From NCBI RefSeq assembly GCF_035918155.1, contig NZ_CP109328.1:1208729-1272728 (forward strand): a DNA stretch of 64,000 bases. Direction: 5' to 3'. This document shows positions 38,557 to 58,404 of the stretch, piece by piece; position 1 is the stretch's first letter, and every line of letters begins with the position of its first letter. Source of the DNA: Streptomyces sp. NBC_01591. Its GTDB lineage: Bacteria; Actinomycetota; Actinomycetes; Streptomycetales; Streptomycetaceae. Position numbers and translations under genes: made by a program. The notes beneath the pieces are model-generated. The model saw nothing but the letters and a program-made list of their open reading frames with translations. It was not told the origin of the DNA and made no database searches.

Positions 38557-41472
38557 TCAACTGCTTGCTGTCCGCGGTCGCGGGTACAGCCTGACTGCGT
38601 CTGGGGCGAATTTTCCGAGACCGACGACATTGCTTGCGTAGCTGATGGAGATCTGGATTCCCTCGATATGGCTCAGTGGAGTGATGTCAATCATGGAAGT
38701 TCGTGCCGAGCGACAGTTAATGAAGAAGCTTTCGAGATTTGGGAAGAGGTCCGGGACTAGATCCAGCTGTATTTCTGAATTTGGGAGAAGGCGGAGATAG
38801 GTGATGCTGGGCATTGGGGCGGCGTGGTTGAGGTCGTATTCTGAAATGCACAGCTCAGTCAGGCGGGGGAGCGTGGAAAGTTCTTGCCACTCTCCGCTGC
38901 TGGGTGCGGCGTTAATTACTAACTCCTGCAGTTGCTGCCACCTGGAGATGCCGGCCAAGCGTGTGCCGACCCAGCCGCCAAGCTCTAGCCGCGTCAGACC
39001 TTTGGGTGCTGGCAGTTCCGCCAGGGTTTCCCAGGGCAGACGCGTGTAGAGGGTAAGATTGGTTATTTTGGGCAGGGAATCCAATGCGTCAAAGGAGAAT
39101 TCGTCCGGTAAGTGAAGGAGGCTCAAATTGAGCAACGGAAGTCCTGCAAGTTCTTCTATCTCTGTGATTTGGGTGCATTCGGAGATGGTTAGTTCCTTTA
39201 GGGCTGGCAATCCGCGAGCGAAATTTAAGTCTTGGAGTAATTGGCCGGAGTAGATCCGCAGAGTTTCGGTGTGTTCAGGTGAGAGGTGTTCGACGATCTC
39301 GCCTGCGGTGAACTTCCCTCGGAAGGCGACGTTGGTGATGGGTTTCAGGAGTCGCAGCGCGTTCAGCTGATCAGCGGTGTGTACTTCCAGAAACAGACGT
39401 TCCTGATCCGGAAGGGGGAGCAGTAAGTCGCGGGCGTATTGATCAGCCTCGAAGTGCTCCCAGCGCCGGAATAGCGCGGAGGGCGTTGCGTCAGAAGGCA
39501 TGGACTGTACGAAGCGGTAGAGGAAGGCGTAGGCCTGGTCGCCGCCGATGGCGGCTGCAGTTTCGATGACGGGACCCACTTCATCGTCTTCCAGGCCTTG
39601 GGGCCCCGGCAGCAGCTCCAAGACGCCCGGCCCCAGCGCGGCAAGCGCCTCCGCCTCCTCCGCGGAGCGGGGAGGCATCAGGACACGCGCACGCTGTTCG
39701 ACCAGTCTGCGAGTGTCGGGCTCGATTTCGGTCGCGTAGTACAGGCTGGCTGCCGCCAGGAGGTGGAGCCTGGGACGGTGCTGGTTCTCAGCATCACCGC
39801 GTTCGACGAGGCGCCGTAGCAGATCGGCGCTTTCGACTGGCCTGGCGTGGGTGGCAGCCATGCGTACGACGTCCTCCCACTGGTCATCGTGGGCGTTGTT
39901 GACCAGGAGTGGGAAGTCGTGGGCTTCGATGGCGGCCTTGGCCCCGAGGTAGTCCTGGAAAGTGCGGTGCACGAAGTCGATGGTGTCCATGGTGGGCTGG
40001 CGCAGGAGCCCGCTGCGTCCAACCAGGTGAGTCAGAACCTGGTCGGCAGTGCCTTGCTCGGCCACGGCCTGCATGGCCGGCAGCGCGTCACTGACTAGGG
40101 CCAGCGCGGTTGCCCGGCCCATCTCTGTCTGGCGGTTGCGGATGAGCCAGTAGGCCAGACGCTGAAGAAGCTGGACGTTCTGGTGCTCGGTGAGCTGAAT
40201 GCCCTCTGGGACGTCGATGCTGCGCTCAAGGTCACGGCGCACGAGGAGCATCGACAGTGCTGCCTCGTAGAGCTCCATACGACTATGAGGCAGATGACCG
40301 CGGCGGTCCCGGTGCAGCGCACAGATAAGCGCACACATCAGGGGAGTGCTGGACAACTGTGCCAGGTCACGCTGAGCACGTACCGTCACCAGGAGCACTG
40401 CTTCGAGATCACGCAGCTGCGAGCGTTCGGTGTCGGTCGCCGCACTGTGCCGGGCAGCGGTATGCCACCGACCGACGAACATGCCCGTGTCAGCGGCACT
40501 CATGGGCCGTACGGACAATTCGGTGAAGCGCGACGAAGCCAGCCAACCTTCGGGAACCGCTGACGGCCGGGTGGTGACCACAAAGTATGCGTCCTTGTAG
40601 GCCGCCAAGAGCTGTTCAAGCCAGTCCCGTGTGGCAGCCCGATCCTCCTGGGGGACTTCGTCGATGCCGTCGACCAGGACCAGGGCCTCACCTCTGGCGA
40701 GCACGCCATCGGCCCATCCCTCAGGCTGGGAGCTGGCCAGAGGTGTTCCGACCGCAGAGAGGAACTCATGTGGCTCCGGAAGGGGCCCACGCCGCACCAG
40801 TGTGCGCAGCGGCAGGACGAACGGAATCTTCCCCCGCCAGTCCGCCAGTTCATCCGGCAGCTCATCGCGCGCTGTGGCGACAGCCAACCACTGCAGCAGC
40901 GTTGTCTTTCCGCTGCCGGCGAGCCCTCGCAGAAGTACCCGTCGACAGCTGGCCAACGCGTTCTCTGCACGCTTCACCACAACGGATGGCCGGTCCGCCT
41001 CCTCGCTACTCGAAGGCCAACTCTCTGGCTGCTCCGCCAGTTCCAAGCTCAAGTACGCCGCGTCCAGCGGCCAGTGTGCACGTTCTGGCCGGCTCAGGTC
41101 CAGCCCTACGACAGTCAGCCGGGAATGCCGCTCCGCGACGTAGCTGAGGTACCGCTCCTCGAACGAAGGCTGCACCGTCGGCCGCACCGACCTACGAAGC
41201 ACTCTTCTCGGAGAGCCCTCCCCCACCTGCGGCATGCACGCGGCGGCGCGGCGTAAGGCCAGCAACGGGACTACCTCCGTACCCAGCGCCTTAGCCAAGA
41301 TCACCAGCGTGGCCTCGGATGGCACCTTATGACCGCTCAGCGCTTGGCTGACCGTTGTTCGCCCTAGCCCTGTCCGCTGCTGCAGCCCAGCCATCTGCAG
41401 GCCTCGCTGTGTCTTAAGGGTGCGCAGCCGCAGCGCGAGCTCCGCCAACGGATCCTCGTGCACCTCCTCCAT
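38557..41472 (-). CDS. HTH-NACHT protein with leucine-rich C-terminus (NLR-like)
   Basis: About 971 residues from MEEVHEDPLAEL; AGGAG upstream favours this start over 41511. An XRE-type HTH fills residues ~8-70 (LKTQRGLQMAGLQQRTGLGRTTVSQALSGHKVPS). A NACHT NTPase follows with Walker A GLAGSGKTTLLQ (about 183) and Walker B EALVLVDGIDEVP. It continues with SSTPLMCALICALH and FVHRTFQDYLGAKAA, the winged-helix and arm typical of NACHT proteins. The C-terminal ~300 residues hold leucine-rich repeats (LTISECTQITEIEELAGLPLLNLSLLHLPDEF...). Bacterial NACHT proteins include anti-phage effectors. No C-terminal nuclease is visible, so the effector is unclear. Confidence 0.9.
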   Translation of the reverse strand: MEEVHEDPLAELALRLRTLKTQRGLQMAGLQQRTGLGRTTVSQALSGHKVPSEATLVILAKALGTEVVPLLALRRAAACMPQVGEGSPRRVLRRSVRPTVQPSFEERYLSYVAERHSRLTVVGLDLSRPERAHWPLDAAYLSLELAEQPESWPSSSEEADRPSVVVKRAENALASCRRVLLRGLAGSGKTTLLQWLAVATARDELPDELADWRGKIPFVLPLRTLVRRGPLPEPHEFLSAVGTPLASSQPEGWADGVLARGEALVLVDGIDEVPQEDRAATRDWLEQLLAAYKDAYFVVTTRPSAVPEGWLASSRFTELSVRPMSAADTGMFVGRWHTAARHSAATDTERSQLRDLEAVLLVTVRAQRDLAQLSSTPLMCALICALHRDRRGHLPHSRMELYEAALSMLLVRRDLERSIDVPEGIQLTEHQNVQLLQRLAYWLIRNRQTEMGRATALALVSDALPAMQAVAEQGTADQVLTHLVGRSGLLRQPTMDTIDFVHRTFQDYLGAKAAIEAHDFPLLVNNAHDDQWEDVVRMAATHARPVESADLLRRLVERGDAENQHRPRLHLLAAASLYYATEIEPDTRRLVEQRARVLMPPRSAEEAEALAALGPGVLELLPGPQGLEDDEVGPVIETAAAIGGDQAYAFLYRFVQSMPSDATPSALFRRWEHFEADQYARDLLLPLPDQERLFLEVHTADQLNALRLLKPITNVAFRGKFTAGEIVEHLSPEHTETLRIYSGQLLQDLNFARGLPALKELTISECTQITEIEELAGLPLLNLSLLHLPDEFSFDALDSLPKITNLTLYTRLPWETLAELPAPKGLTRLELGGWVGTRLAGISRWQQLQELVINAAPSSGEWQELSTLPRLTELCISEYDLNHAAPMPSITYLRLLPNSEIQLDLVPDLFPNLESFFINCRSARTSMIDITPLSHIEGIQISISYASNVVGLGKFAPDAVRLYPRPRTASS

Positions 41473-41594
41473 GTCCTGCTTCTCCTCTCTTGGGCGACCG
41501 TCTTCATTCATCTTTGTTCGGCCTGAACCCCTGTGAACACCAAAACCGCGAAGTTCATCGAAGTCGCCGTCGTCAACCACCTCGGGAAGAAGGC

Positions 41595-43679: not shown

Positions 43680-44636
43680 TCAGTGGTGTGTGTGGGTGAG
43701 GAAGATACGGAGGGGGTCGTTCGCGCTGGGGGTCAGGTGGGTGAGGTTCAACCGGTGAGCGATGAGGCCGAGGGCGTCGTTGGTGGTGCGGTGTGGCCGG
43801 TTCGGCAGGGTGGCGAGTGCGCGGGTGAGGGCGACGGTTTCCGGGTAGATCACCAGGTCGCGCGCGAGGAGTGCGGGGGAGGCGCTGCCCGTGGTGGCCA
43901 GGTGGGGGTTGCCCGCGCAGAGTCGGGTCAGGCGGGTGTGCCAGCGGTGGGTGAGATGTTGCTGGTGGTCGTACCAGCGGGTGGTGATGGCGCGTGCCGC
44001 GGTCCAGGCGGTAGCGGCGCCGGGATGTCGTAGCAGGCGCTGGTGGGCGTGGCGCGCGGCCGCGAGTTGGGGCACGGCCCACGTGTGGATGGGGGAGGCA
44101 AGCCGTGGGTCGGGGGCGGCTTGGTGGTGACGCGGGCACACCAGCCGGTGCGGCGGTGGGTGAACCCAGGCGGTGTCGGTGGTGCCGTGGCTGCGGTGGT
44201 GGGTGCACAGGGTGCAGGCGCGGACGGGCTGCTGTGCGGCGTTGAGCCGCTTCCAGCGTGCGGCGGCCTCGGCGCTGGGGGCGGTGTCGTTGAGGGCGGG
44301 GCGGGGCAAGGCACGCAGGAGGTTGGGGAGTGGGACCCGGGCGAGGGCAGCGAGGTGCCGGGCCGCGTTGTGGTTGAGGTGGAGTTCGGCTGCCGGCAGT
44401 GTGCCGTGGCCGTGGAGGGCGATACCAGCCCCGTCGAGGAGCTGGGGCAGAGTCAGCTGATAGGACATAGCGATACGTTGGGCGTACGAGGCGGTCGCTT
44501 CGCCGGGCAGCGGCCGTACTCGGAACACGCCCGGCGCGGCTGCCGGGACCTGCAGCCATGCCCTTGCGGTGACGGCGCTGCACTGTGGGGCGCCGGCCTC
44601 TGCTACGGCACGGTCCGTAACGTCTGTCCGGCTCAC
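43680..44636 (-). CDS. tniQ: TniQ-family protein (first copy)
   Basis: A 318-residue TniQ/TnsD-like protein. The N-terminal domain reads FRVRPLPGEATASYAQRIAMSYQLTLPQLLDGAG. A zinc-binding region follows, CTLCTHHRSH ... HRLVCPRHHQAA, as in target-selection proteins of Tn5053/Tn7-type transposons. It overlaps the tniB stop by ATGA, so the two are coupled. The protein should link the AAA+ regulator to a target site. Codon use is normal and the frame intact. Confidence 0.85.
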   Translation of the reverse strand: MSRTDVTDRAVAEAGAPQCSAVTARAWLQVPAAAPGVFRVRPLPGEATASYAQRIAMSYQLTLPQLLDGAGIALHGHGTLPAAELHLNHNAARHLAALARVPLPNLLRALPRPALNDTAPSAEAAARWKRLNAAQQPVRACTLCTHHRSHGTTDTAWVHPPPHRLVCPRHHQAAPDPRLASPIHTWAVPQLAAARHAHQRLLRHPGAATAWTAARAITTRWYDHQQHLTHRWHTRLTRLCAGNPHLATTGSASPALLARDLVIYPETVALTRALATLPNRPHRTTNDALGLIAHRLNLTHLTPSANDPLRIFLTHTHH

Positions 44637-45520
44637 AGGGTGCTGGCGCTGCGGCTTCGGGGCCGGGTGTGGGGTCGGTAGTGCTGTTCGGCGAGGTGGT
44701 CCAGGCGGATGGCTTCGAGGCTGGTTCTGGTGATGCGTTCGGTGCCGTCGAGTAGGGCAGCGATGGCGGCCTGGCGGATGAGGCGGGCGAGGCTGCTGAT
44801 ACGGCCGGCGGTGCGTTCGTGCAGGTACGGGGCCAGTTGGGGGAGAGTTCCGGGCCGGTGGTGGCGCAGGTCGAGCGCGCCTTCCATGGCGGTAATGAGG
44901 TCGCGGAAGGGTTCGCTCTCACCGAGGCGGGCGGGAAAGGCGGCGCAGTCGATGAGGGAAGCGCGTCCGGCGAGCTGCGCACCGCGCACCCCGGTGAACA
45001 GAGGTGTGGTGGTGACGTCGATTCCGGCGTAGACGAAGGTGGCGCCGATGCGTTCGGTGAGGTCTTTGATCAGGTCGGCGCTCTGGGCGCCGGTGGTGGT
45101 GCGGGGGTTGAGCCGGTGGACCTCGTCGATCATCACCAGCTGGACGCCGGCAGCGGTGTAGGTGTGGCAGACCGCGTTGGTGATCTGGACCTGGGACATG
45201 CCGGCGGCGACGGGGATGCCGAGGTAGCGGGCGAACTCGGTGGCCAGGGTCTTGGCGCTGGCGGCGGGCGGGACCAGGACGTAGGCGACAGGCACCTGCC
45301 CGGCTGTGGCTGTGGGGCCGTGGCGTCGGGTGTGGGCGAGGTGGCAGGCACGACCGACCTGGAGCAGCGCGGTGGTCTTCCCGGCGCCGGCGGGGCCGGT
45401 GACGATCAGGGACGGCCGTGCGGTGACTGCCTGGTGTGAGTTCTCATTTTTGTTGTAGCGGAGGTATGCCTCTGACCTGGGGTGTTGCAGGCGGATGAGA
45501 CATGTCGTGGTCCTGTTCTG
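44633..45520 (-). pseudogene. tniB: TniB-like AAA+ ATPase (first copy), 5'-truncated
   Basis: The frame contains PSLIVTGPAGAGKTTALLQVGRACHLAH (Walker A), AGVQLVMIDEVHRLNPRT (Walker B) and ATFVYAGIDVTTTPLFTGVRGAQLAGR, matching TniB/TnsC. Upstream of Walker A no ATG or GTG occurs before a stop at 45521-45523, and the usual ~70-residue leader is missing. Starts inside the gene would lose Walker A. It is therefore probably truncated, though the rest is intact and coupled to tniQ. Confidence 0.8.
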
Positions 45521-45827: not shown

Positions 45828-48188
45828 TCAGTGGTCGATGTCGTCGAAAAGACTGCGCTGTTCTGGGATCGGTTGGCTGTTCTGTGGGGTCTCTCGTCGG
45901 TAGGGAAGAGGATCGGGAGCCCAGTCGCGGTGTGCTTCGTCCGGATCCTCGCGGATCTGTTGGTAGATGTCTTGTGCGCGGTCGAACTCACCGGCGGTGT
46001 CATCGTCCAGCCGTCGCTCGAAGGCTTGGCTGTACCAGAACAGCGCGTCGTCGACGGGGTCGTTGTCTGGGTCGCCGTTGAACTCCGAGGCCCAGTCGTA
46101 TACCCGTTGTTCGAGGCGGGGAACGAGTTCACGGCATACGTGCTCGAACAGGTTCTCGCGTTCCTCTTCCGTGAGGAGGACGTGCCAGGCATGGTGCAAG
46201 TCGTTGTCTTCAATCCACGAGGCGTCGGGTGCCATGACGGCTAGGTCCGTCATACGTGCGATCGCCTGCTGCCGGATGTCTTCGGGGAGCAAACCGGCGC
46301 GGTGGAGGCGGGCCAGTACCCGCGAGCGGATGTCGTCGTTGGCCGGCGTGCCGAAGTCCATGAGCACCGAGTGGAGATCGGGATCTTCCATGAGGTAGGC
46401 GCGTAGGAAGCCGTCGCTGCTGTCCCGCGACAAGTAGGAGAAGACGCTCTGTCGACGCTCGTACTCCTCCTGCCAATCCCTCAGAGGACTGCGGCGATGT
46501 CGGCGCAACGCGGAGATCCGTTTGGCCGTCGCCTGGTACAGAGGCGGCGGGATACGCAGGAGAGTGCCCTGGCGCTGTTCGCTGCCGGTGGGCAGGCAGT
46601 CCGTGCGGGAGAGCAGGGCCCGGTCGGTCATGCCGGTGAGGACGATGGGCAGCAAGTGGGCCTGGGTGGTCAGCCAGGTGGCGAAGCCCTCCCGGAGAGT
46701 GGGGTGGTGGAATGACCAGTACGCCTGCCCGTCAAGGGCGGTCGCCTCGGTGAGGAAGGTGCCGGTCAGCGTGGTCATGGCCCGGCTGGCGGCGCCGGGG
46801 GCGGCGCCAGCCCGATCGATGATGTCGCGCTGGGCCGGATCGAGGGCGAGGGGGCTGGGCAGCCCCTTGTCCTGACCTGTGGCGTACACGAGGGCGAGGG
46901 CTGCGTGGGCGTGTACGTCCAGTTGGTCGTAGACATCGATCAGGAGCTGCCGGGGCCGGGCCATGAAGGACGTAATGCTCTCGCGGGTCAGGGACAGCCC
47001 CGTGGTGAATGCCTGGAGTCCGAGGCGCCGTGCGGCTTCGGGGCGGAACGGCTCGGCGTCGGCTGCGGCTTCGAGGTGCGGTTTCATCCGGCTGAGCACG
47101 TCCGCCGGCTGATCGCCCGCAGCGAGATGGTTGTAGAGGATCTGCTGCCGCTCCGTGCGGGCGAGGTCGGCGACATCGACGGTGACCTGCTGTTCGTGCA
47201 GCAGGGGGTAGGCATACGGTTTCAGCAGGGGCCGGGCCTCGTTGTAGATGTAGTTGCGGGAGGTCAGCACGACCCGGGCCCCGTTCTTCACGGCGCTCAT
47301 CACGTGCGGCAGGTCCCGTGCCCAGGCGTGGGTGAGGATCTCCTCATGGCGGACGGCGCCGAAGGCGTCATCGAGCCAGAAGAACTGGTCCTTCTCGTGC
47401 GGGTTCCAGCGCTGTACCAGTTCGTCGGAGGTGCGCGGCTTGATGGCCACGCAGCTCCAGTTGTCGGCGGCGCTGATGGCCAGCATCAGGGCGATGACGG
47501 ATTTGCCCACGGCCGGGTCGCCGAGCAGCAGTACGAAGCCGTGGTCGCGCAGTGCGCGGGCGGCCTTGCGGTAGGCGCTGGTGACGACGAACGTGGAGAC
47601 CTGTTCCGGCGCGGACTTCATCAGCACTGAGGCCTGGGTGTAGGCGCGTTCGTCGAGAATCTGTGACAGGTCACCGAGTCCATAGACACGGGGGACGAAC
47701 ATCCGCAGCTCTCGATGTGAGGCGATCATGTCGCTCAGCCACTGCCCGTCGAGGACCAGGGGGTGTGCCACCCCGCAGGCGCGTAGTCGCCGCTGGATCT
47801 TTTCCTCGGACAGGCCGCTGACCCGGGCGTTGGTCAGCAGCACATAGGTCGCGCATACCCCGCGCTTAACCAAGGCACGGACCTTGGCGAATTCGTCCTC
47901 GAGTTCCGACGGGGCGAGTGTGGCATCCGCCTTCTTGGTGTGCTTGCACTGCAGCGCAAAGGGGCCCGGCGGCACATCCTGCACGCCTCCGGGCTCGTCG
48001 GGCGGTTGCCAGGTGCCGTAGAAGGCGCCGTCTCTGCCCCCGTCGTTGGAGTCCGCGAACGCCTGTACGGACTGTCCCCACACCTCCCGCAGCACAGCTG
48101 CGCACAGGTCCTGAAAGGCGCGCCAGCCCAGGGTGTGCAGGGCGAAGCGAGGCGACCCGGGGGCGATGGTTTCGCTCGTCCCCGTCAT
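45828..48188 (-). CDS. Mrr-like nuclease fused to a STAND NTPase (Avs-like)
   Basis: A 786-residue protein. Residues ~15-150 form a PD-(D/E)xK restriction-type domain: FQDLCAAVL, the acidic motif GGRDG (about 50-54) and QCK (about 80-82). A STAND NTPase (nSTAND3-like) follows with Walker A GDPAVGKS (about 223-230) and Walker B FFWLDD (about 269-274). A long helical sensor-like C-terminus has no clear repeats. Nuclease-STAND proteins are anti-phage Avs-type receptors that cut DNA when a phage protein binds. The ATG overlaps the PLD-like gene's stop (ATGA). Inside a Tn7-like remnant it is probably transposon cargo. Confidence 0.85.
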   Translation of the reverse strand: MTGTSETIAPGSPRFALHTLGWRAFQDLCAAVLREVWGQSVQAFADSNDGGRDGAFYGTWQPPDEPGGVQDVPPGPFALQCKHTKKADATLAPSELEDEFAKVRALVKRGVCATYVLLTNARVSGLSEEKIQRRLRACGVAHPLVLDGQWLSDMIASHRELRMFVPRVYGLGDLSQILDERAYTQASVLMKSAPEQVSTFVVTSAYRKAARALRDHGFVLLLGDPAVGKSVIALMLAISAADNWSCVAIKPRTSDELVQRWNPHEKDQFFWLDDAFGAVRHEEILTHAWARDLPHVMSAVKNGARVVLTSRNYIYNEARPLLKPYAYPLLHEQQVTVDVADLARTERQQILYNHLAAGDQPADVLSRMKPHLEAAADAEPFRPEAARRLGLQAFTTGLSLTRESITSFMARPRQLLIDVYDQLDVHAHAALALVYATGQDKGLPSPLALDPAQRDIIDRAGAAPGAASRAMTTLTGTFLTEATALDGQAYWSFHHPTLREGFATWLTTQAHLLPIVLTGMTDRALLSRTDCLPTGSEQRQGTLLRIPPPLYQATAKRISALRRHRRSPLRDWQEEYERRQSVFSYLSRDSSDGFLRAYLMEDPDLHSVLMDFGTPANDDIRSRVLARLHRAGLLPEDIRQQAIARMTDLAVMAPDASWIEDNDLHHAWHVLLTEEERENLFEHVCRELVPRLEQRVYDWASEFNGDPDNDPVDDALFWYSQAFERRLDDDTAGEFDRAQDIYQQIREDPDEAHRDWAPDPLPYRRETPQNSQPIPEQRSLFDDIDH

Positions 48189-49054
48189 ACGTCGTCCTTG
48201 TGGCCGTCATCGGTTGAGCCGTCGCTGAGCGTGGTGAGCGCCTCCCACATCTCCTCGTCGTCGTAGTCCGGTTCAACCAGGTCTGGGGTCAGGATGTTGC
48301 TGTCGGGATCCAGCTCCTCGGACTGGGCAACGACCTCGACCAGGAACTTCTGCGCGGCCTTCATGAGACCGGGGTCCCGTGTCCACAGCCCGAACTCCAG
48401 GCTGCGGCGGGAGCTTTCCGTGCCGTTGGCACTTCCCAGCCACAGCCGGCTGGGCCGGAAGCCGATGACATCGGCCACCCCGCCCAACCCGTCTTCGTCG
48501 TGCCGCCACAGCTCACCCAGCAGCAACATTTTGGTGTGCAGGATCGGAACGAGATGATCACCGGCCTTGCGGTAACCGAGGCTGCGTAGCGCAGGCAGCT
48601 GGATGTCCGGTGACGCAGAGCCGGGACCGAGTACAGGCGCCGCGCCGTCCTCATGGAGGCTCAGTCCCTCCAGATTGGGCAGCGCCCGAGCGGGGAAGCC
48701 GGCCGCGCCCTTCACCGCGTTGGCCACCTTGCGCAGTCTCTCCAGGGACCGTGGGCCCCTTGACTGTTTACTGACCACCACGCATGCGGACGGGAACCCG
48801 GCTATCCGGCGCAGCAGTTCAGTGTCGTCCACCCACAAGAACGCCCCGAGCATCCCGGCCCCAAGGCTGCGTGAGCGCCGCTGTTGCTCCAACTCGTTCC
48901 GGAACGTGTCGATCCCGTCGACGAGGCCGGCCAGCACATTCGTCCCGAACCGGGCGGGACCACCTTCCGCTGCGACCGCCTGCACGTTGAACTGGTGAGA
49001 AAACGACAGACTCACGACCCCTCCTATAACAGGAGCATTATGGCGTGCCGTCAC
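48185..49054 (-). CDS. Phospholipase D-like (HKD) protein, partner of the STAND nuclease
   Basis: A 289-residue protein. The C-terminal half carries an HKD-type motif, ILHTKMLLLGELW (HxK), followed by the companion pattern LWLGSANGTESSRRSLEFGLW (GSxNxTxxS...E). The N-terminal half lacks a second clear HKD, so a dimer may be needed. PLD-type enzymes include nucleases such as those in restriction systems. It is the first gene of the pair and the overlap with the STAND gene implies a joint function. A two-part defence module is inferred. Confidence 0.75.
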   Translation of the reverse strand: MTARHNAPVIGGVVSLSFSHQFNVQAVAAEGGPARFGTNVLAGLVDGIDTFRNELEQQRRSRSLGAGMLGAFLWVDDTELLRRIAGFPSACVVVSKQSRGPRSLERLRKVANAVKGAAGFPARALPNLEGLSLHEDGAAPVLGPGSASPDIQLPALRSLGYRKAGDHLVPILHTKMLLLGELWRHDEDGLGGVADVIGFRPSRLWLGSANGTESSRRSLEFGLWTRDPGLMKAAQKFLVEVVAQSEELDPDSNILTPDLVEPDYDDEEMWEALTTLSDGSTDDGHKDDV

Positions 49055-49144
49055 AGACGGGTCGTACGGTCACCCCCACCCTCCCGTCGAGGCGCCCGGC
49101 CAGGCGGCAGCATGCCGTCGTCGCAGCTGCAGGGACAGACGTGA

Positions 49145-49390
49145 ATGGCCACGGGAGGCACCCTGCTCGTCGACGAGGCCAGCGGCGTGATCTTCGTCGG
49201 CGAGGCGACCAGCCCGCCCCCGGACTCTCCGCTGACCGAGGCCTACTTCCAGCACGGTGTCAGCGTCCACCTCGCCGCCGGACGGAAGACACCGGCAGCA
49301 TCAGCCACTTCCTGGGCATGTGGCACACGCACCCGCACTCCCCGGCACAGCCCAGCGCCACCGGCCGCGCCGGTGCTGCGATGTCACGCC
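49145..49390 (+). pseudogene. JAB/JAMM metalloprotease fragment, frameshifted
   Basis: One frame reads GTLLVDEASGVIFVGEATSPPPDSPLTEAYFQHGVS. A shift near 49285 gives SISHFLGMWHTHPHSPAQPSAT, the HxHP...S zinc motif of JAB-domain proteases. Prokaryotic JAB proteins often belong to CBASS or ubiquitin-like modules. Only this central piece survives, so it is a scrap of another, possibly defence-related, gene. Confidence 0.65.
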
Positions 49391-49460
49391 GATGAACCTC
49401 GCCACGCCTGCTGAACAGGACCTGCGTGCGGGGCTGTCGCCACGGATGGCGCCGACGCCG

Positions 49461-50158
49461 TCAGCCGAGAGGCAGGTCGAGGTAGCGGGCGGCGTCGTGC
49501 AGGACATCGCGGGTGAGGGTTTCGGTGCGGTCGAGGATGGAGAGTTGGGCGGCCATACCGATCAGCGGGGTGAGGTGTTCCATGAGTCCGTCGGTGATGC
49601 GGTAGAGCTCTTCCTCGTGGTCCAGGAGGCTGCCGAGTTTGTGGTGCCGTAGCCGCAGCAGGCTGTCGAGGGTGGCCAGGGTGCCGGCCCATTCGTCGGG
49701 GTGTTCCGTGCAGCGAGGCGGGAGCCGGTTGACCCAGAGTGTGGGGACTGAGCGTGGCCGGATGGGGGCGGTAGCCTCGGTGAGGCGTCTGAGGGCGGGG
49801 AAGCGGGCGGCGCGGGCCTCACGCAGGATGTCGCTGGAGCCGATGCCGCTCCAGAAGACGGTCAGGCCCAGTTCGTCGGCGAGGTAGTCGAACGTCGGCT
49901 GCAGGTCCTCGGGCCGCAGCCGGTCGATTCCGTCGATCAGGCAGACCTCCGTACGGGCATGGCGCATCACGTGGACCGCAGGCCCGGTGAAGTCCTTCAT
50001 GCGCTGTACGGGCCGTTGCTCGGTGTCCGGGCGGTACAGATCCCAGCCGAGGAAGACGGCCAGGGCCGCGGACCAGTCGGCGGATGTGCCGGGTTCGGGC
50101 GGGGCGTTGACGCAGACGACGGGGATGCGGCTGTCGTCGATGCCGTGGCCGCCGTCCC
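49461..50158 (-). pseudogene. tniB: TniB (second copy), C-terminal part
   Basis: Minus-strand frame: HGIDDSRIPVVCVNAPPEPGTSADWSAALAVFLGWD, TEVCLIDGIDRLRPEDLQ (Walker B region), LTVFWSGIGSSDILREARAARFPAL and a helical end at 49461. It is the continuation of the N-terminal part at 51011-51386 after an ~850-bp insertion. Confidence 0.8.
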
Positions 50159-51010
50159 CACCATCTGGCAGGGGCTGCTCGCCGAGGTCACCGCCAACCC
50201 GCGCGACCTCGCAAGAAGTACGGCGCCGAGGTGGTCGGCCGGGCGCAGGGATACGACGTCGCCGTTCTGAAGCTGAAGAACCCGCCGTCGGGGCTCGCTC
50301 CGCTGGCCCTCGGCAATTCGGACGAGGTCGCGGTCGGCGATTCCACGATTGCCATCGGCGCCCCGTTCGGCCTGTCCAACACGGTCACCACGGGCATCAT
50401 CAGCGCGAAGAACCGCCCGGTCGCCTCCGGTGACGGCTCCGGCGGCAGCAACTCGTACATGAGCGCCCTGCAGACCGACGCCTCGATCAACCCGGGCAAC
50501 TCCGGCGGCCCGTTGCTCGATGCGCGCGGTGCGGTCATCGGCATCAACTCGGCCATCCAGTCGACCGGCAGCAGCGTCGGCCAGACCCAGGCGGGCTCCA
50601 TCGGCCTCGGCTTCGCGATTCCGATCAACCAGGCGACGAACGTCGCCCAGCAGTTGATCAAGACCGGCAAGCCGGTCTACCCGGTGATCGGAGCCACGGT
50701 CAGCATGGACGAGAAGACCGGCGGCGCGGTCATCTCCGACCAGGGGGCGGACGGTACGGCAGCCGTGTCGAAGGACGGCCCCGCGGACCGGGCCGGCCTC
50801 AGGGCGGGCGATGTCATCACGAAGTTCAACGACACCGTGATCGACAGCGGCCCGACCCTGATCGGCGAGATCTGGACCCACAAGCCCGGCGACCGGGTGA
50901 CGCTGACCTACCAGCGCGACGGCCGGACGGCAACGGCCGAGGTCACCCTCGGGGACCCCGGTCCCGAGTACGCGGCGAACCGGCACAATGTCGGCTTCAT
51001 GGTGGCCGAT
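50159..51010 (+). mobile_element. Insert splitting tniB: mosaic of host gene fragments
   Basis: A segment in the opposite coding orientation. About 50159-50212 reads PTIWQGLLAEVTANPRDLA (unidentified source). 50213-50965 encodes an HtrA-type protease piece. From about 50965 the frame reads PGPEYAANRHNVGFMVAD, the N-terminal signature of peptidyl-tRNA hydrolase. No terminal repeats or transposase are visible, so how it was inserted is unknown; an assembly chimera is possible. Confidence 0.6.
50213..50965 (+). pseudogene. HtrA/DegP-type serine protease fragment (protease + PDZ)
   Basis: Reads KYGAEVVGRAQGYDVAVLKLKNPP (catalytic Asp region), TDASINPGNSGGPLLDARGAVIGIN (catalytic Ser in GNSGG) and a PDZ domain (SKDGPADRAGLRAGDVITKFND). 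The N-terminal part with the membrane anchor and catalytic His is missing, so it cannot be a working protease. Its C-terminal end runs straight into peptidyl-tRNA hydrolase sequence. Confidence 0.85.
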
Positions 51011-51386
51011 TCTCGCGGCGTCCCTGGTGGGCCAGCCCGATGTGGTGCAGCAGGGTGCGTTTGCCAGTACCGCGGCAGTCGCTGTCGATGGCGACGTGCT
51101 GGCAGGGGTGGCGGCGTTCGCCGTTGAGGCGCAGCATCCGCCGTGCGGTCTTCATGCCTGTGGCGATGTCGGTGGTTTCGACGAGGCTGAGCTGGGCGTG
51201 GTAACGCACCCGGGGGTCGTCCTCGTCGACGGGCACGGGGCCGTCGACCGGCGGGATCGGGGGAGGGGCCGGCTGGTGCCGTACGCGGGCGCGCCAGCCG
51301 TGCAGAGTGGTCGGTGACCCAGGAGACAGGGCCGGCGCCGACGCGGGCGGCGGGACACTTTGAGCGTCACGTACGGGGGGTTTCAC
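51011..51386 (-). pseudogene. tniB: TniB (second copy), N-terminal part
   Basis: Starts by ATGA overlap with the tniA stop. It reads MKPPVRDAQSVPPPASAPAL, DDPRVRYHAQLSLVETTDIATGM (the conserved TniB leader) and DSDCRGTGKRTLLHHIGLAHQ (Walker A, atypical CRGTGKRT). It breaks off at the HtrA/Pth insert near 51010. Confidence 0.85.
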
Positions 51387-53767
51387 CGGTCATCTCCCTG
51401 TCGCCCGTTGCCCGGTGGGGGAGGGCCGGTGCTGCTGTCACCTTGGGTGGTGTCTGGGGTGGGCCTGCAGTTGTTGTCGCCCACGGGCCCGGGATCGGTG
51501 GGGCCGGGCGGGTGGAGGCCGGGCAGGGAGGCCAGGAAGTCGTCCAGGCTCAGGCCCGCGCCACGGACGGGCTCGGGCGTGTCGAACAGCTCTCCGGAGG
51601 GACGGTCGAGGGAGCGGAAGGGGCGGACGGAGTCCGGGTCCAGGGGCGGCAGGCCGTCGGCGTAGGGCTTGGTGGTGGGCGTCGGCCGCGCGGGGCGGGG
51701 CACCGCGGCAGCCGCGCGGGGACCCGGCCTGGCCGCGGTAGGCGAGGGCCCGGCGGCCGCGGTGCGCAGCAGCTGAGCGGTGGCCCGGGTGACGGCGGCC
51801 TCGTCACGGCGGCTGCCGCCGGCGGCGAGGTGGATACGCAGGGCCTGGTCCCAGGTTTCCTCGGTCCACCGGTCCTTGAGCAGTCGGCGGTGGATGAAGG
51901 GCACCTCGACCCACGGGTCGGTGCCCGGCTCGGCCCGGTGGTTGAACAGCCAGGCGACTTCCGGGTGGTCGGGGGAGTAGTGGACCTCCCAGCGCCCCTG
52001 CTGCGCTGCGATGCCGGAGGGCCCACGGAAGAGGTCCAGCTTTCCCCGGTCGAGGTTGTAGGTGCGGTTGTTGATCTGGAAGCCCTTGCGGCTGACCCGG
52101 ACCCACACCGTCGGCAGCAGCTTGCGGTTCTCCTGCGCGGTCAGCGTGGTGGACCGGTAGCCGCGCAGGGACACCAGGGCTGCGTACATCTGGTTGGGAG
52201 TCAGGCACAGCCCAGGAGTGAACGGACTACGAAGTGCTGCGTGAGGGGTCTGCTGCCAGCGGAGAACCACCCACTGCTCGAACAGTTCCTGGAGCTGGGG
52301 GATTGTCCACAGAGGCTGCTTGCGGACGCGTTTGCCACGCAGGTCCAGACGGTGATGGGTGTAGGAGGCCAGGTACTGGCTGAAGCCGGTTTTCACCGCC
52401 AGCATGGCGCGCTCCACGATGGCCTTGTCGACGGCGGTGCGCAGCCGTGCCTCGCGTACTTCGATGCCCATGCAGTGGCAGGCGCGGGTGAAGTCCGCGG
52501 AGATGAACGGCGAGCCGTGGTCGATGACGAGTGTTTCGGGTTTGATGACGGGCCTGGCGGCGGCGCCGGCGAAGCGGGGGTCGGCCGCCAGGAGGTCCTC
52601 GAAGGGGAGGTCGGATCCTTCCATGAAGGTTTCCGGTGCCCAGCCCGGGCGCGCGGGTAGCGGGGCCGTGGTCTGGGCGACGACCTGCATGGTGTCGAAC
52701 GAGCGGGTGGCCCGCCCGGCGGTCCACCGTCCCGTCCCGCCTGTGCGGCCGGTGCGCTTGGGCACGAGCAGAGAGCCCACGATGCTGCGGGTGGCCACGT
52801 CGATGGCGATGGTGAGCTCCACAGAGATGCCCCGTCCGTCGTCGCCGAGGACGAGGACGTCCAGTCCGGTGGTGTCGATCTGCACCAGTTCCCCGGGCCA
52901 GCGGGCCCAGGTCGCCCGCCGGGCGACCGGCCGCTCTGCGGATGTGGCAGGTCCGGCCGCGTGGCGGGCCGCCGCGTCGTGCGCGTTCTGCGCGGTGATC
53001 CCGAGGCGCTCCAGTAGCCGGTAGAACGTCGCCGGACTGATCACCAGGCCCCGGGCGGTCTTCGGATCGGCCAGCAGCTGCGCGTAGCGGGTCCGGACCG
53101 TCTGCTGCACCCGGTCGATCAGCCGGGACAGGGTTCCCGGAGACAGGCCCTTGTCGCGTTCGTCGTCCAGGATCTCCCACACGAGGTCGACCACCCGCGC
53201 ATCGACGCGCCCGTGCGGGGCCGTACTGCGCAGGCTGCGTTTGTCGACCAGGCCCATCAGGCCTTCTTTGCGCCAGGCCGCGCACTTCCGTTCGACAGTG
53301 GCCGCGGACACCGGTGTTCCTGCCTGCGACAACTGGCCGGCCTTGGCCTGGTAGCGCTAACGCAGGGTGCGCCGCTGCGGGTCGAAGGCCGGTCGGGGCT
53401 CGGTGGTGGCGGGAACGTTCGGGGCCTGCTGGTGCAGTACTTCCTTGACATGCCGCTCCCACGCGAGGGCGGCCTTGCGTACATCCTTCGGCAGCGCACG
53501 GAACTCGCCGAGGCGGCCGGGCAGCGAACTGCGCGGCGCCGCCCGGTTCAGCACGGCGAAGTCGGAGGCCGAGGTCACGGCCGTCTGCAGGATGATCAGC
53601 GGCTCCACAGGCTCTGCCGACTCTGCGGCGTCGAGGAAGAGACGCGGTCCGTGGAAGGCGGTCACGACCCAGGCCACGCCGCGGAAGCGGATAGTGTCCC
53701 CCACAGCCAGGGTGTCAGCAGCGGCGAGCGCCCCCGCACCTGCGGTGTGCCGCGAAGCCGAGGTCAC
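51383..53767 (-). pseudogene. tniA: TniA/TnsB-type transposase with an internal amber stop
   Basis: GTG start at 53767, overlapping the TnsA-like gene's stop. The N-terminal domain reads DTIRFRGVAWVVTAFHGPRLFL. At 53357-53359 a TAG interrupts ...RRTLR-stop-RYQAKAGQLSQAG..., with the same frame continuing. An HTH follows, then the Mu/retroviral-type integrase core: LVQIDTTGLDVLVL (Asp), TLVIDHGSPFIS (Asp), KAIVERAMLAVKTGF (Glu), a Mu-C beta domain and a Pro-rich tail. The family usually has Gln (CAG) at such a spot, so a single CAG-to-TAG change is the simplest explanation. The 3' part alone could restart at 53332. Confidence 0.88.
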
Positions 53768-54498
53768 ACGGCCTCCCCTGAGCGGGCCCATGCCGTCGAC
53801 GACGGGGTGAGCGGGACACCCATGTCGGTATGCAGCCGCTGCGCCCAGATCAGGTGATAGGCAAGGTCCACCCCCGCGTACGGGGGCAGGGCGGCGGCTC
53901 GTAGCCCAGAGCGGATGGTTCGAGGCGAGGTGAACTGCTGTGCCAGCAACTGGTCCTGCCCTGCCGTGAGCCATCGTGGGCTGCGGGCGGCGTAGAGAAG
54001 CTGGAGGTTGTCCAGTTCCACCCCGGTGGGAGGTTCCATCACCCGGATCTGCCAGCCTGCTGCTGCCGCAGCCACCGCCAGCACCGCCTGCTCGGATTGC
54101 CACCGGTCGGTGAACTGCTCCGGCTGCACGCAGATCACCTCGCGCCAGCCCGCCCGTAAGGCGACGAACGCTGGCCGCAGGCGGTGGCGGCGCCCCTGCT
54201 GGCTCCAGCGCAGCTCCATCGGCCCCGCGCTGCGCAGCCCGACCGCCAAGTCGCGGTCCAGGACCATGCCGCAGCGCTGCTGCCGCAGCGAGCCGCAGGC
54301 CAGCAACTGGTCGGTGGCCGAGGCCCACGCGTTGGTGACGAACGACTGCCGTCCCGGGTAGGGCACGGGCCGCTCCAGCGGTGCCAGTTCCTCGAACGGC
54401 ACCTCGCCGGCCTCTGACACCGGGCACTCGCGCTGTCGTCCGAACCGGTCGAGGTAGCAGACGGTGATGTCGCATGCGCTGACCGGGGCCCCTGGCAT
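53764..54498 (-). CDS. TnsA-like endonuclease homologue lacking catalytic residues
   Basis: About 244 residues from MPGAPVSACDITVCYLDRFG; AAGGGGG upstream decided this start. Position before tniA and general layout match the actinobacterial TnsA-like family, which cuts transposon 5' ends with a PD-(D/E)xK site. At the expected places this protein reads CGSLRQQR instead of an E-containing FESxxER, RLRPAFV instead of HVPDF, and ICVQP instead of a DVR/K-type strand. All three acidic/basic catalytic elements seem absent. It may be a structural subunit or decayed. Identification rests partly on context. Confidence 0.65.
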   Translation of the reverse strand: MPGAPVSACDITVCYLDRFGRQRECPVSEAGEVPFEELAPLERPVPYPGRQSFVTNAWASATDQLLACGSLRQQRCGMVLDRDLAVGLRSAGPMELRWSQQGRRHRLRPAFVALRAGWREVICVQPEQFTDRWQSEQAVLAVAAAAAGWQIRVMEPPTGVELDNLQLLYAARSPRWLTAGQDQLLAQQFTSPRTIRSGLRAAALPPYAGVDLAYHLIWAQRLHTDMGVPLTPSSTAWARSGEAV

Positions 54499-54667
54499 GT
54501 CCGCCGCCCCCTTGGCTGTTGTCGTGGGCCGCACCGTGCGTGCCCCTGCTCCAGCATCCACGTACGGATGGGGCATGCGCAGCCGCACCCGGCTCCACCC
54601 CACGATCGAGGGAACAGGGCAGATACGTGTGCGAAACCAGACGGGGCGTGCCGCTGTGGGCGGGAGC

Positions 54668-55696
54668 TCATACGACGGTGAACGAGTCACTCCAGTCCCA
54701 GGGCAGGCAGCAGAGGTTCTCCAGCGGCGCCCGGTGCTCGTCGTCGCGGTGGATCAGCGCTGTGACCGGCCTCCGGCCACGGCGGCGCCCGCCGCACTCG
54801 TCATCCCTGGTGGCCGGCGCGCACCGCTGATGCCGGGCGAGCCACTCCGCCACCGGGACCTGCCACCTGCCCGGCGGCAGTTCGAGCGCATCCGCCAGCT
54901 GGGACAGCTCGGCCACCAGACGGGACTCGGCCGCAGCCCAGGGCCCGCCGGGCAGAGCGGCGCGTTGCTGCTCGTAGCGCAGCAGCGCCCGGGCTACCTG
55001 CAGCACCTCCGGATACACCAACAGCCATGCCGTCTCGACGACTTCGGGCTGCAGTCCCGCCCGCCCGGCCCGCCCGGTCCACCGCCGGGTGAGAGGGGCG
55101 CGGCGCCACCACCACCCAGTAAGGGCGAAGGCGTCCGAGACCAGGAACCCTCCGGCCGGCCCGAACCGCCGCTCAAGCCGGCCCCGCCGACGGTGGGCGT
55201 CGACCGACTCCGGCAGCGGCGCCAGATCCACTCCCGCCCCATTCCTCTGACGCACGTGCGTGAACCGGCCGTGCCGCTCGCAGATCCGCCACCGCTCCGG
55301 CCAGACGAGCCACACCCCACCAAGGCCGGCGCCCCGTGCCGCCGTACACAGTCCGCAAGCCGGCACGAGATAGTGCGCCAGCGGCTGCCACGGCCACTCC
55401 CACCGCGCCTGCCCACCCGGCAGAAGATGTGCCTCGCGCAGATGCGGCAGGGCCCACCGAAGCCGCGCGGACGGCACCCCGAGCATCTCCGCGAGCCGGT
55501 CTGCCGCCGCACCGCTGAGGAACACCTCGGCCAGATATGGCTGAAGGGCCTCCTGGCCCGGCGGCCCGTCGCCGAGTTCGGCGAGCAGGAAGCCGACCTC
55601 CACCCCCTGTGCCCCGGCCACCCGCCACAAGAACGAACAGTTCGACTCGTTGGCCACGAAGCGGACCGGCCGCCGCGGCAGACTTCTGCTCCACAC
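54668..55696 (-). CDS. tniQ: TniQ-family protein (second copy, TnsD-like)
   Basis: A 342-residue protein from GTG 55696 (VWSRSLPRRPVRFVANESNC) after GGGG-rich RBS sequence; a longer TTG start at 55741 is possible. It carries a TniQ-type N-terminal region, the zinc-ligand sets CGLCTAAR and RICERHGRF, and a long Arg-rich C-terminus that ends CLPWDWSDSFTVV. It lies 169 bases upstream of the TnsA-like gene in the same direction, so it heads the operon. Probably selects the insertion site. Confidence 0.75.
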   Translation of the reverse strand: MWSRSLPRRPVRFVANESNCSFLWRVAGAQGVEVGFLLAELGDGPPGQEALQPYLAEVFLSGAAADRLAEMLGVPSARLRWALPHLREAHLLPGGQARWEWPWQPLAHYLVPACGLCTAARGAGLGGVWLVWPERWRICERHGRFTHVRQRNGAGVDLAPLPESVDAHRRRGRLERRFGPAGGFLVSDAFALTGWWWRRAPLTRRWTGRAGRAGLQPEVVETAWLLVYPEVLQVARALLRYEQQRAALPGGPWAAAESRLVAELSQLADALELPPGRWQVPVAEWLARHQRCAPATRDDECGGRRRGRRPVTALIHRDDEHRAPLENLCCLPWDWSDSFTVV

Positions 55697-55983
55697 CGTA
55701 TTCCCCAACCCCTTTGCCCAGGCGGCCCGGCAACCGTCCAATCACGATGCTTGCCGCCCGCCGTACATCGCGCCTCCCGCACCGGCTGTCCTGCCCAGGA
55801 CGCCACGCCCGCAATGAACCGGATCTCCACCGCACTCCGCTCCCTACCACGGTGAGGACCCAGAGGGCCCGGGGCGTTCACCCCAACGGGTGAGACAGGC
55901 CGGGGTGAGTGCCCTGCGCCGCGGGCTCGTCCGCATCCTGCCCCTTAGAAACCCGTCACCTGCCCTTGCGCCGGAGCCGTCTT

Positions 55984-58404
55984 GTGCTGCACGACCAGCC
56001 CGCCAAACGCCTGCCCAGCGAACTGTGGACACGCCAGCGCGCCGCGGCCGACTGCGTCCTCAACGCCTTCGCTATGGGATACGAACGCCAGCAGGTGATC
56101 ATGCCGTGCGGCACCGGAAAGACCCACCTCGCCGTCCACATCGCCCACGAGCTCACCTCCGACAGCCGCAGCCTGACCGTGATGCCGACCCTGGAACTGC
56201 TCAACCAGACCGCCCGCGTCTGGCACACCTCCGGCCGGCCGGGCCACTTCCTGGGCCTGTGCTCCGACACACAGACCAGTGAGCCCATCCTGAGCGGCGT
56301 GCTCACCATGACCAGCGACCCCGCCCGGCTGGCTGCCGTCGTACGCGGTGCAGACGGTCCCGTCAGTGCCTTCGCCACCTACGCCTCGCTGCCCAAGCTC
56401 GTCGAAGCTCACCAGCGCCATCTGCTGCCGCGCTGGGACATCGCGGTCGTGGACGAAGCCCACCGTACCGCCGGCGCCCGCGGCAAACCGTGGGCCGTCA
56501 TCCACGACAACGACGCCATCCCCGCCCGCCACCGCCTCTACCTCACCGCCACGCCCCGCATCTGGGACGTCAACCGAGACATCGTCACCGAACCGATCGC
56601 CTCCATGGACGACGTCTCCCTCTACGGACCTGTCGCCTACCGCTACTCGCTGGCCGAGGCCATCCATGAGGGACGCCTGGCCGACTACCGCATCGCCGCC
56701 CCCGAGATCCACGACCCGCACCTGCGCACCCTCTTGACCGCCGGCAAGGGGGCCAGCCGCACGCCCCAGACCGATGCCATGCGGGTAGCGGCGGCCCAGC
56801 TGGCCCTGCTCAGAGCGCGCGAGGAACACAGCATCCGCCGCACGGTCGTCTTCAGCCGCAGCATCGCGCAAAGCGATGCCTTCGCCGAAACCCTGCCCGA
56901 GACCGCCGCAGCCATCCCCGGCGGCCACGCCCACGGCCTATGGGTCGCCAGCATCCATTCCCGTAACAGCCGTTCAGAGCGGCGAGAGCACCTGACCCGG
57001 TTTGCCCAGCCTCCGCAAGACCAGCACGCCAGCACTCTCGCGGAGCTGAGCGTGCTGTGCAACGTCCGCCTATGTGTCGAAGGTGTCGACTTCCCGCTGG
57101 CCGACTCCGTGCTCTTCGCCGACCCCAAACAGTCCACCATCGACATCGTCCAGGCGATCGGCCGCGCTCTGCGCATCGGCCCTGGTATGAACAAGATCTC
57201 CACACTGGTCATCCCGGTGCTCTTCGGCCCCGGGCAGCGCCCCGAGGCAGCAACGTTCGGGACCCCGTACCACCTCCTGCACCAGGTCATGATCGCGCTC
57301 AAGGCGTACGACGAGCACTACTTCCACCGCCTGCCGATCAACGGCGCCCGGCTGCTACCGCCCGCACCGGCCCTCGCCATTCACCCGGCACGCGCAACGG
57401 AGATCGCCCCGCACCTGATGCTGCGGATCATGGAGCCCGAACCCGATGTCTGGGAGAACGGGATGGCCTGCGCGCAGGCATTCTTCGACACCCACGGCCA
57501 TCTGAACGTGCCCAGCAACCACATCACCGATGACGGGTTCCACCTCGGCTGCTGGCTGGGGTACCAGCGCGCTCTCAAGGCCGCCGGACACCTCTCCGCA
57601 GCCCGAGTCGCCGCCCTGGTCACCTGCACCATGCCCTGGGCCCACACCGAAGACAGCACCGAAAACCTCCTCCCCGTTGCCCAGGACTACGCCCGTGCCC
57701 ACGGCCATCTGCTCCCGGAACCGGATGAGACCTATCAGGGTCGACCACTGGGCGCCTGGCTTGCCGAGCAGCGCCGCCTGGCCGCCGACAGCACCCTGCC
57801 CGCCCCCTACGCCCGCGCCCTGAAGGACATCGACCGCTGGTGGAACCCCGCCTGGCACGCGGCGTGGCAGCGCATGTACACGCGTGCCCGCGAGGCCGAC
57901 ACGGACCTGTCTCTCTACCCGGGCCCGCTCCCCGCCGACGCGGACGACCTCACTCGCTGGCTAGACGAGCAGATCGATGCCTTCCCTACTCTCGCCAAAG
58001 CACAGCAGACACTCCTGGCCGCTCTGCCGCTGCAGCGCGGCCCCCTCACCCTTGCCCTGTGCCGTCCCCTCGGCAGCCAGAGCGCCACGCACGCCCACGG
58101 ACTGCGCGCCGCCCGGCGCTTCTTCCGCCGCTACCAGCATCTGCGCGTCCCCGTTGACTACACCGACACCCACGGCAGTTCCTGCTTCCCGCTGGGTCAG
58201 TGGATCACCGACTTGCGCGACTTGGCCGGCGCGGCCCGCCTCAGCCGTGAAGAGACCGAATCCGTTGAGGCGCTCGGCATGGAATGGCTTCCTGGACTCC
58301 GGTGCGACGATGCCCCAGCCGCCCTGCCCAGGCCCCGCATTCCGTCGGCGGGGCAACATCGGAACCGACGCACCCACGGCGGAGCCGCCGGACGAGCACA
58401 CTGA
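55984..58404 (+). CDS. SF2 helicase with helicase-associated (HA) domains
   Basis: About 806 residues; GTG 55984 was chosen because GGAG lies seven bases upstream. SF2 motifs: VIMPCGTGKTHLAVHIAHEL (I), IAVVDEAHRTAGA (II, DEAH), LYLTATPRIW (III), RTVVFSRSIAQSD (IV) and DIVQAIGRALRIG (VI). The C-terminal third contains HA-type repeats (FFDTHGHLNVPSNHI...LGCWLGYQRAL; FFRRYQHLRVPVDYTD...LGQWITDLR). Helicases of this build, including TtrA, cluster near Streptomyces telomeres and are linked to conjugative or end functions. The frame is intact. Confidence 0.88.
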   Translation: MLHDQPAKRLPSELWTRQRAAADCVLNAFAMGYERQQVIMPCGTGKTHLAVHIAHELTSDSRSLTVMPTLELLNQTARVWHTSGRPGHFLGLCSDTQTSEPILSGVLTMTSDPARLAAVVRGADGPVSAFATYASLPKLVEAHQRHLLPRWDIAVVDEAHRTAGARGKPWAVIHDNDAIPARHRLYLTATPRIWDVNRDIVTEPIASMDDVSLYGPVAYRYSLAEAIHEGRLADYRIAAPEIHDPHLRTLLTAGKGASRTPQTDAMRVAAAQLALLRAREEHSIRRTVVFSRSIAQSDAFAETLPETAAAIPGGHAHGLWVASIHSRNSRSERREHLTRFAQPPQDQHASTLAELSVLCNVRLCVEGVDFPLADSVLFADPKQSTIDIVQAIGRALRIGPGMNKISTLVIPVLFGPGQRPEAATFGTPYHLLHQVMIALKAYDEHYFHRLPINGARLLPPAPALAIHPARATEIAPHLMLRIMEPEPDVWENGMACAQAFFDTHGHLNVPSNHITDDGFHLGCWLGYQRALKAAGHLSAARVAALVTCTMPWAHTEDSTENLLPVAQDYARAHGHLLPEPDETYQGRPLGAWLAEQRRLAADSTLPAPYARALKDIDRWWNPAWHAAWQRMYTRAREADTDLSLYPGPLPADADDLTRWLDEQIDAFPTLAKAQQTLLAALPLQRGPLTLALCRPLGSQSATHAHGLRAARRFFRRYQHLRVPVDYTDTHGSSCFPLGQWITDLRDLAGAARLSREETESVEALGMEWLPGLRCDDAPAALPRPRIPSAGQHRNRRTHGGAAGRAH

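Follow-up and report, generated by a model that had tools for sequence, protein, structure and literature searches.

Two overlapping genes lie on the reverse strand of a 64,000-nucleotide stretch of Streptomyces sp. NBC_01591 DNA (the window), one encoding a small PLD-like protein and the other a 786-residue protein that combines an Mrr-like nuclease with a STAND nucleoside triphosphatase (NTPase), here called the STAND protein. With about even confidence, we propose that they form a two-gene immune cassette, in which an Avs/NLR-like sensor nuclease is joined by an exchangeable auxiliary effector, the PLD protein; the folds of the two proteins and the neighbours of related genes suggest that the pair may protect against phage. 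In the usual description, a STAND sensor is one protein to which the effector is fused. If our proposal is true, a second enzyme is swapped as a coupled gene, which would show how bacteria recombine sensing and killing modules.

An earlier note on this DNA, made from the letters, had described a PLD gene overlapping a 786-residue Mrr/STAND gene by ATGA, and this arrangement is borne out. The STAND gene occupies 45828..48188 and the PLD gene (276 residues) 48185..49015, both on the reverse strand, and the ATGA at 48185..48188 (-) is a stop/start overlap of the kind expected for translational coupling. The PLD gene most likely begins with the GTG at 49015, behind AGGAGGGG, which we prefer to the alternative start at 49054 because homologues begin at 49015. 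A possible -10 box, CATAATGCT, lies just 5' of this start (49034..49042, -); it was recognised by eye, and in a comparison of four loci it was also found in L021, L022 and L026. Conservation of the gene overlap was a check that the note had named, and a stop/start overlap is kept in all ten coupled loci compared, window included, as ATGA in five and GTGA in five. Both genes are under purifying selection, with ratios of nonsynonymous to synonymous substitution (dN/dS) of 0.18-0.30 against the two nearest relatives: 0.059/0.273 (L021) and 0.059/0.286 (L022) for the STAND gene, and 0.068/0.375 (L021) and 0.072/0.243 (L022) for the PLD gene.

The pairing is conserved beyond the window. A scan of GTDB contigs with the PLD alignment gave 23 loci, and a few more came from searches of genomes and plasmids. 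Loci with the same DNA were merged (L044 with L021, L048 with L028, L049 and L054 with L033, L012 with L035, and L014, L017 and L019 with L041; L045 lies within L074, L011 within L075, L050 within L077 and L053 within L076), and 15 with broken or truncated PLD genes were set aside (L013, L015, L028, L033, L035, L036-L040, L041, L042, L043, L051 and L064), leaving 16 distinct intact PLD loci. The window's type of STAND gene (nSTAND3) comes next in six of the 16 (the window, L021, L022, L026, L029 and G313), and in four (L023, L024, L025 and L027) the PLD gene is followed by another gene, some 1100 codons long and cut after 513 codons in L024. All ten of these coupled PLD genes directly precede an Mrr-STAND gene, and their products share at least 72% identity with that of the window. 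Coupling probably reaches beyond this close clade, since 14 contigs appear common to the 120 PLD and 120 STAND matches listed (matched by size, so that adjacency is not proven), and nine of them carry PLD proteins merely 54-59% identical to that of the window.

The alternative downstream protein, represented by P0242, has no strong Pfam match itself. Of nine relatives scanned, three (P0271, P0275 and P0276) score above the cut-off for Mrr_cat, and NACHT matches below threshold (E 0.0002 to 0.015) occur in five; we therefore call this type Mrr-NACHT. Its best BLASTP match to the STAND protein has an E value of 0.44, which is not significant, and on this ground we treat the two sensors as unrelated in sequence and reject the idea that they diverged from a single protein, although their domains may have a distant shared ancestry. 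The DNA of L026 (nSTAND3) and L024 (Mrr-NACHT) is 91.9% identical over 5326 bp spanning two tyrosine recombinase genes and the PLD gene, and the homology stops 14 nt into the second gene. L029 and L025 (82.9% over 4646 bp) share the same end point, whereas in the same-type pairs L029/L026 (7536 bp) and L074/L026 (3279 bp) homology continues through the second gene. The nSTAND3 and Mrr-NACHT partner types are interleaved in the PLD tree, where L026 groups with L024 (support 86/94), although support in this tree is modest and a long-branch warning was given. Such a PLD, found next to two unrelated sensors, would provide a ready test set.

The STAND gene in turn occurs with several partners. Within the window's genus, 11 of 392 genomes, its own counted, contain the STAND protein, whole or in part; six of the 11 have a PLD gene or remnant directly upstream (intact in G000, G469 and G313, damaged in G337, G584 and G405). 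Thus the outcome that would have spoken against the earlier note, homologues of the STAND gene never co-occurring with PLD, is not what we find. The PLD gene is nonetheless not an obligatory partner: in four of the 11 (G228, G303, G506, seen in part only, and G550, with a cut STAND gene) an XRE-ImmA/IrrE gene overlaps the STAND start, and one distant genome, G456, has neither upstream. The XRE-ImmA protein of L006, the one scanned, matches the PD-Lambda-2_B (E 1.3e-29), capP and RmrA models. Plasmids extend this range; 18 plasmid records hold at least 80% of the STAND protein, including near-copies (nine from Piscirickettsia, two from Methylocella and two from R. beringeri), and eight regions were opened. 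On these plasmids of proteobacteria, AbiEi and AbiEii lie 4 bp upstream of the STAND gene in Bradyrhizobium, an OLD-like ATPase gene overlaps it in Roseibium, and in Methylocella a helix-turn-helix (HTH) gene is accompanied by an overlapping gene for a small protein with a nucleotidyltransferase (NTase)-like motif, seen by eye and without a Pfam match. The Piscirickettsia, R. rhizogenes and Mesorhizobium plasmids have no coupled gene upstream, the R. beringeri gene is split and the Neorhizobium record is without annotation. In the family and phylum samples, which overlap, the STAND protein is present in three of 297 and one of 396 genomes, respectively, own genome counted, the phylum sample being thin; the PLD protein or pieces of it occur in six of the 297 family genomes, again with the own genome counted.

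The STAND protein matches Pfam nSTAND3 (PF20720) at 135 bits (cut-off 27.2) and, according to its model, has a STAND core fold. The motifs that had first been read in it, GGRDG...QCK, GDPAVGKS and FFWLDD, are present as claimed. By its motif, the N-terminal domain is predicted to be an Mrr-like nuclease; the catalytic motif is conserved, the Mrr_cat match of 19.2 bits falls just below the 21-bit cut-off, and PF04471 appears in the precomputed annotation of five of the 120 homologues listed (3026 counted). A helical C-terminal region leads into a disordered linker (residues 748-776 are predicted disordered, and 741-780 is the most variable stretch of the alignment) and then into a conserved tail, RSLFDDIDH, encoded at 45831..45857 (-). 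In an alignment of 103 homologues, R778 is kept in 100, S779 in 98, F781 in 101 and D783 in 101. The predicted local distance difference test score of the last block (781-786) climbs to 84, a sign that the tail may dock onto the rest of the protein. The pattern RS-x-FDD-[IVL]-D, kept across phyla, ends 13 of the 17 STAND members of known context, including those of Bradyrhizobium, Piscirickettsia, Methylocella and Roseibium; variants are found in two (L007 and L058) and the tail is absent from two (L059 and L061). Since the tail is also present in members that lack a PLD partner, PLD binding is not its specific role. A search with the tail pattern matched in two of 150 genomes, both at the place of the STAND gene; it says little, as the pattern missed the window's own copy. 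The tail gives direct access to the question of what keeps such sensors inactive and what activates them.

The PLD protein is not recognised by Pfam but has, in its structural model, a PLD fold of the Nuc/NucT type with a single HxK...N motif. This motif, HTKMLLLG...N, lacks the HKD aspartate: the H, K and N are invariant in all 22 sequences, and the D of HxKx4D is replaced by an invariant G. Together with its acidic C-terminus and the want of Pfam recognition, this glycine separates it from the Nuc/NucT endonucleases. Two other identities were considered. DISARM DrmC is rejected, as no PADLOC or NCBIfam family matches at E <= 0.1, and a common phage gene is rejected as well, with no match in 50,697 phage records and none confirmed in a pattern-based scan of IMG/VR. 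The STAND alignment scan of IMG/VR likewise confirmed nothing. Sequence searches gave no credible solved relative for the PLD protein, the STAND protein or P0248; a ribosomal S20 match and single chance matches were discarded.

Several known systems come close to the pair. Avs4 (AVAST type 4) is an Mrr-STAND sensor of the phage portal, and both Avs4 and Avs5 are single-gene systems. The STAND protein resembles Avs4 in its Mrr-like nuclease (by motif), STAND NTPase and helical C-terminus, and the first PDB match in Foldseek is Avs4 8dgf (E 2e-7, probability 1.00), though with a TM-score of only 0.20 and a root mean square deviation of 26; this chain is absent from the 50 VIA matches shown. However, the STAND protein is about half as long (786 versus 1534 residues in 8dgf), has a conserved C-terminal tail and is coupled to an overlapping, conserved PLD gene where Avs4 is encoded by one gene. 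Placement in the Avs family, as first suggested, has the support of the STAND core fold but not of sequence models, since no Avs model in PADLOC matches the pair at E <= 0.1. Relative to Avs5 (Sir2-nSTAND3), whose domains are treated in passages of PMC12931631, the window has an Mrr-like nuclease for Sir2 and a two-gene operon. A further close entity is PDC-S73, an uncharacterised PADLOC candidate of similar length with a similar N-terminal part (E 7.4e-30), of which a Piscirickettsia relative (about 35% identity) covers positions 4-690 of 752; unlike the window system, this model lists no partner. The components of PD-lambda-2 and AbiE have relatives that fill the upstream slot of other STAND members, whereas the window's STAND gene is coupled to neither. 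The STAND family is thus already known as a computational candidate and as a Pfam domain. No paper naming PDC-S73 was found in open-access full text, and the pair was not recognised in any title or opening of an abstract listed by open-access searches, which had subscription papers and preprints outside their scope; the PLD partner, the second Mrr-NACHT sensor, the start-codon breakpoint, the alternative partners and the tail were not found in this literature either.

These observations give a modular picture, because the PLD is constant across sensors and the sensor family is constant across partners. The constancy of the PLD while the sensor changes suggests that it is an effector and not part of recognition, and the constancy of the sensor family while partners change suggests that this particular partner is dispensable for the STAND protein. 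In the mechanism that we propose, the C-terminal helical region would sense an invader component, NTP binding by nSTAND3 would drive oligomerisation, and the N-terminal Mrr-like domain would then cut DNA. The PLD protein, a putative Nuc-like phosphodiesterase acting as a dimer, would be made in step with the sensor and act with it as an auxiliary nucleic-acid-cutting effector; the same PLD would serve the second, unrelated Mrr-STAND sensor, and the partner slot is filled elsewhere by enzymes of toxic potential, namely an ImmA/IrrE protease, an AbiEii-type NTase or an OLD-like ATPase. A bolder version, which we hold only tentatively and below even confidence, is a combinatorial architecture of interchangeable Mrr-STAND and enzyme cassettes recombined at the stop/start overlap, with the phylum-spanning tail as a latch or oligomerisation switch; what suggests that the tail, on its disordered linker, docks at all is the confidence of the model.

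Several points weigh against the proposal of a sensor with an exchangeable effector. Six of the 16 intact PLD loci (L030, L031, L032, L034, L011 and L063, with PLDs 32-52% identical to the window's) have neither sensor, and in one of them (L031:6269-8810) the solo PLD (48% identical) comes immediately after a gene resembling a terminase large subunit, which would fit carriage by a prophage. Copies are damaged in three of the six Streptomyces genomes that have the PLD association, and the STAND members L007, L056, L058 and L061 have no coupled upstream gene, so the partner is not essential everywhere. Activity of the PLD protein is not assured, as the HKD aspartate is missing. The nuclease domain of the STAND protein lacks an independent fold match, the VIA matches listed spanning residues 175-603; residues 44-52 are modelled poorly, and the match to PDC-S73 covers only profile positions 7-337 of 752. 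The setting had been thought typical of defence cargo, and some flanks do hold defence genes: a cyclic oligonucleotide-based antiphage signalling system (CBASS) cyclase (E 5e-114), an E2 and a JetD-like gene in L021, LmuA in L024, a TIR-NB-ARC-TPR gene in L027, Csd1 in L034 and a separate Mrr gene in L011. These were, however, picked by eye without a control and are illustrative.

Both constancy arguments are also compatible with a weaker explanation, in which the STAND protein works by itself as an Avs-like system of one gene and the PLD gene is a separate small defence or housekeeping gene that merely shares its promoter. The partnerless STAND members, the sensorless PLD genes and the single-gene organisation of Avs4 and Avs5 fit this. 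We nevertheless consider it rather unlikely, as a stop/start overlap is present in all ten coupled loci compared, and two unrelated Mrr-STAND proteins follow the PLD at one and the same junction.

A toxin-antitoxin-like logic, with the upstream gene restraining or resetting the Mrr-STAND nuclease and its loss during infection freeing the nuclease, appears quite unlikely. It draws on the other upstream partners, which are genes of toxin-antitoxin type (AbiEi/AbiEii, and XRE-ImmA/IrrE, related to PD-Lambda-2_B in L006). In AbiE, however, the enzymatic partner is the toxic component and not the restrainer. The same holds for PD-lambda-2, since in the passages of PMC9519451 on this system PD-lambda-2B is reported to be toxic alone and rescued by PD-lambda-2A; toxicity relieved by a partner fits the logic, but the enzyme is on the wrong side of it. 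Searches of Pfam, PADLOC and NCBIfam found no DNA-binding or inhibitor-like domain in the PLD protein, and partnerless STAND members would, under this logic, be toxic.

Tdp1 has an HKN motif, and linear replicons carry terminal proteins at their 5' ends. That the PLD protein is not a general nuclease but has protein-DNA or end structures as its targets is nevertheless most improbable: its aspartate-free motif recalls that of Tdp1 and the genes lie 16-43 kb from contig ends in G000, G550, G313 and G121, but Tdp1 is found in Foldseek at an E value of only 4e-3 and is absent from the 50 VIA matches shown, G303 has its STAND gene mid-chromosome, and many loci are short contigs that do not give replicon position.

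A plasmid-size contig of 1,272,728 bp (C2) has the window as its right end. Its terminal 60 kb recur at all four ends of this contig and the chromosome-size contig of 8,806,301 bp (C1), with 99.99% identity across the 60 kb compared, so the cassette is present four times. Window positions 4000-64000 correspond to terminal inverted repeats of at least 60 kb common to C1 and C2, which may be an assembly effect. In other genomes, related pieces are found at similar places: 17 kb from either end in G550 (the cut STAND gene with its ImmA partner), 26 kb from a contig end in G313 and, as a solo PLD, 43 kb from an end in G121.

The pair had also been placed between tniB copies of a Tn7-like element. 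Tn7-like genes do lie on both sides, but both TnsC-like pieces are broken. On the STAND side, a TniQ gene and a frameshifted TniB/TnsC remnant (43683..45295, -) match TniB and TniQ above cut-off. On the PLD side the remains span 49464..55741 (-), with a truncated TnsC-like ORF recognised by eye and without a family match (49464-50000, -), followed at 51386-55741 (-) by an rve/transposase-like TnsB candidate, a TnsA-like protein (NF033179 at 95.2 bits, below the cut-off of 110) and a TniQ (24.4 bits in Pfam, below the cut-off of 27). The data do not support a Tn7-like element as the general carrier, as L024, L025, L026 and L029 adjoin tyrosine recombinases (assigned by Pfam for the L026 pair and by resemblance for the others). 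In nine (L006, L023-L027, L029, L046 and L047) of 17 distinct cassette loci, damaged ones included, the cassette is followed by a truncated HA-domain helicase gene, several of the stretches being too short to tell; these same-family copies may mark its landing site. Two HA-domain helicases lie near the window's replicon end (55909-58404 and 61289-63636). The JAB fragment noted beside the pair is confirmed by eye as a frameshifted HTHPHS remnant at approximately 49144..49400 (+). In L021 (866-2441), the PLD gene has CBASS cyclase and E2-type genes upstream that point away from it, and the JAB remnant could be a leftover of such a locus.

Two solo PLD loci have neighbours of their own. In Mycolicibacterium (L063:5148-6789) a PLD (32% identical) lies 49 bp after an annotated AbiEii-family gene, which sets two alternative partner types side by side; in L011, near the end of the G121 contig, a stand-alone Mrr_cat gene (3-548, E 3.7e-25) precedes the PLD (1516-2298, 46% identical) by about 0.9 kb. 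Within the window, a piece of a serine-protease/PDZ-like gene (HtrA-type, by eye; 50231-51124, +) lies between the TnsC-like and TnsB-like remains. Some 4 kb from the pair, positions 38557-41580 (-) encode a 1007-residue protein with an XRE-type HTH, a NACHT domain and leucine-rich repeats, another NLR-like candidate.

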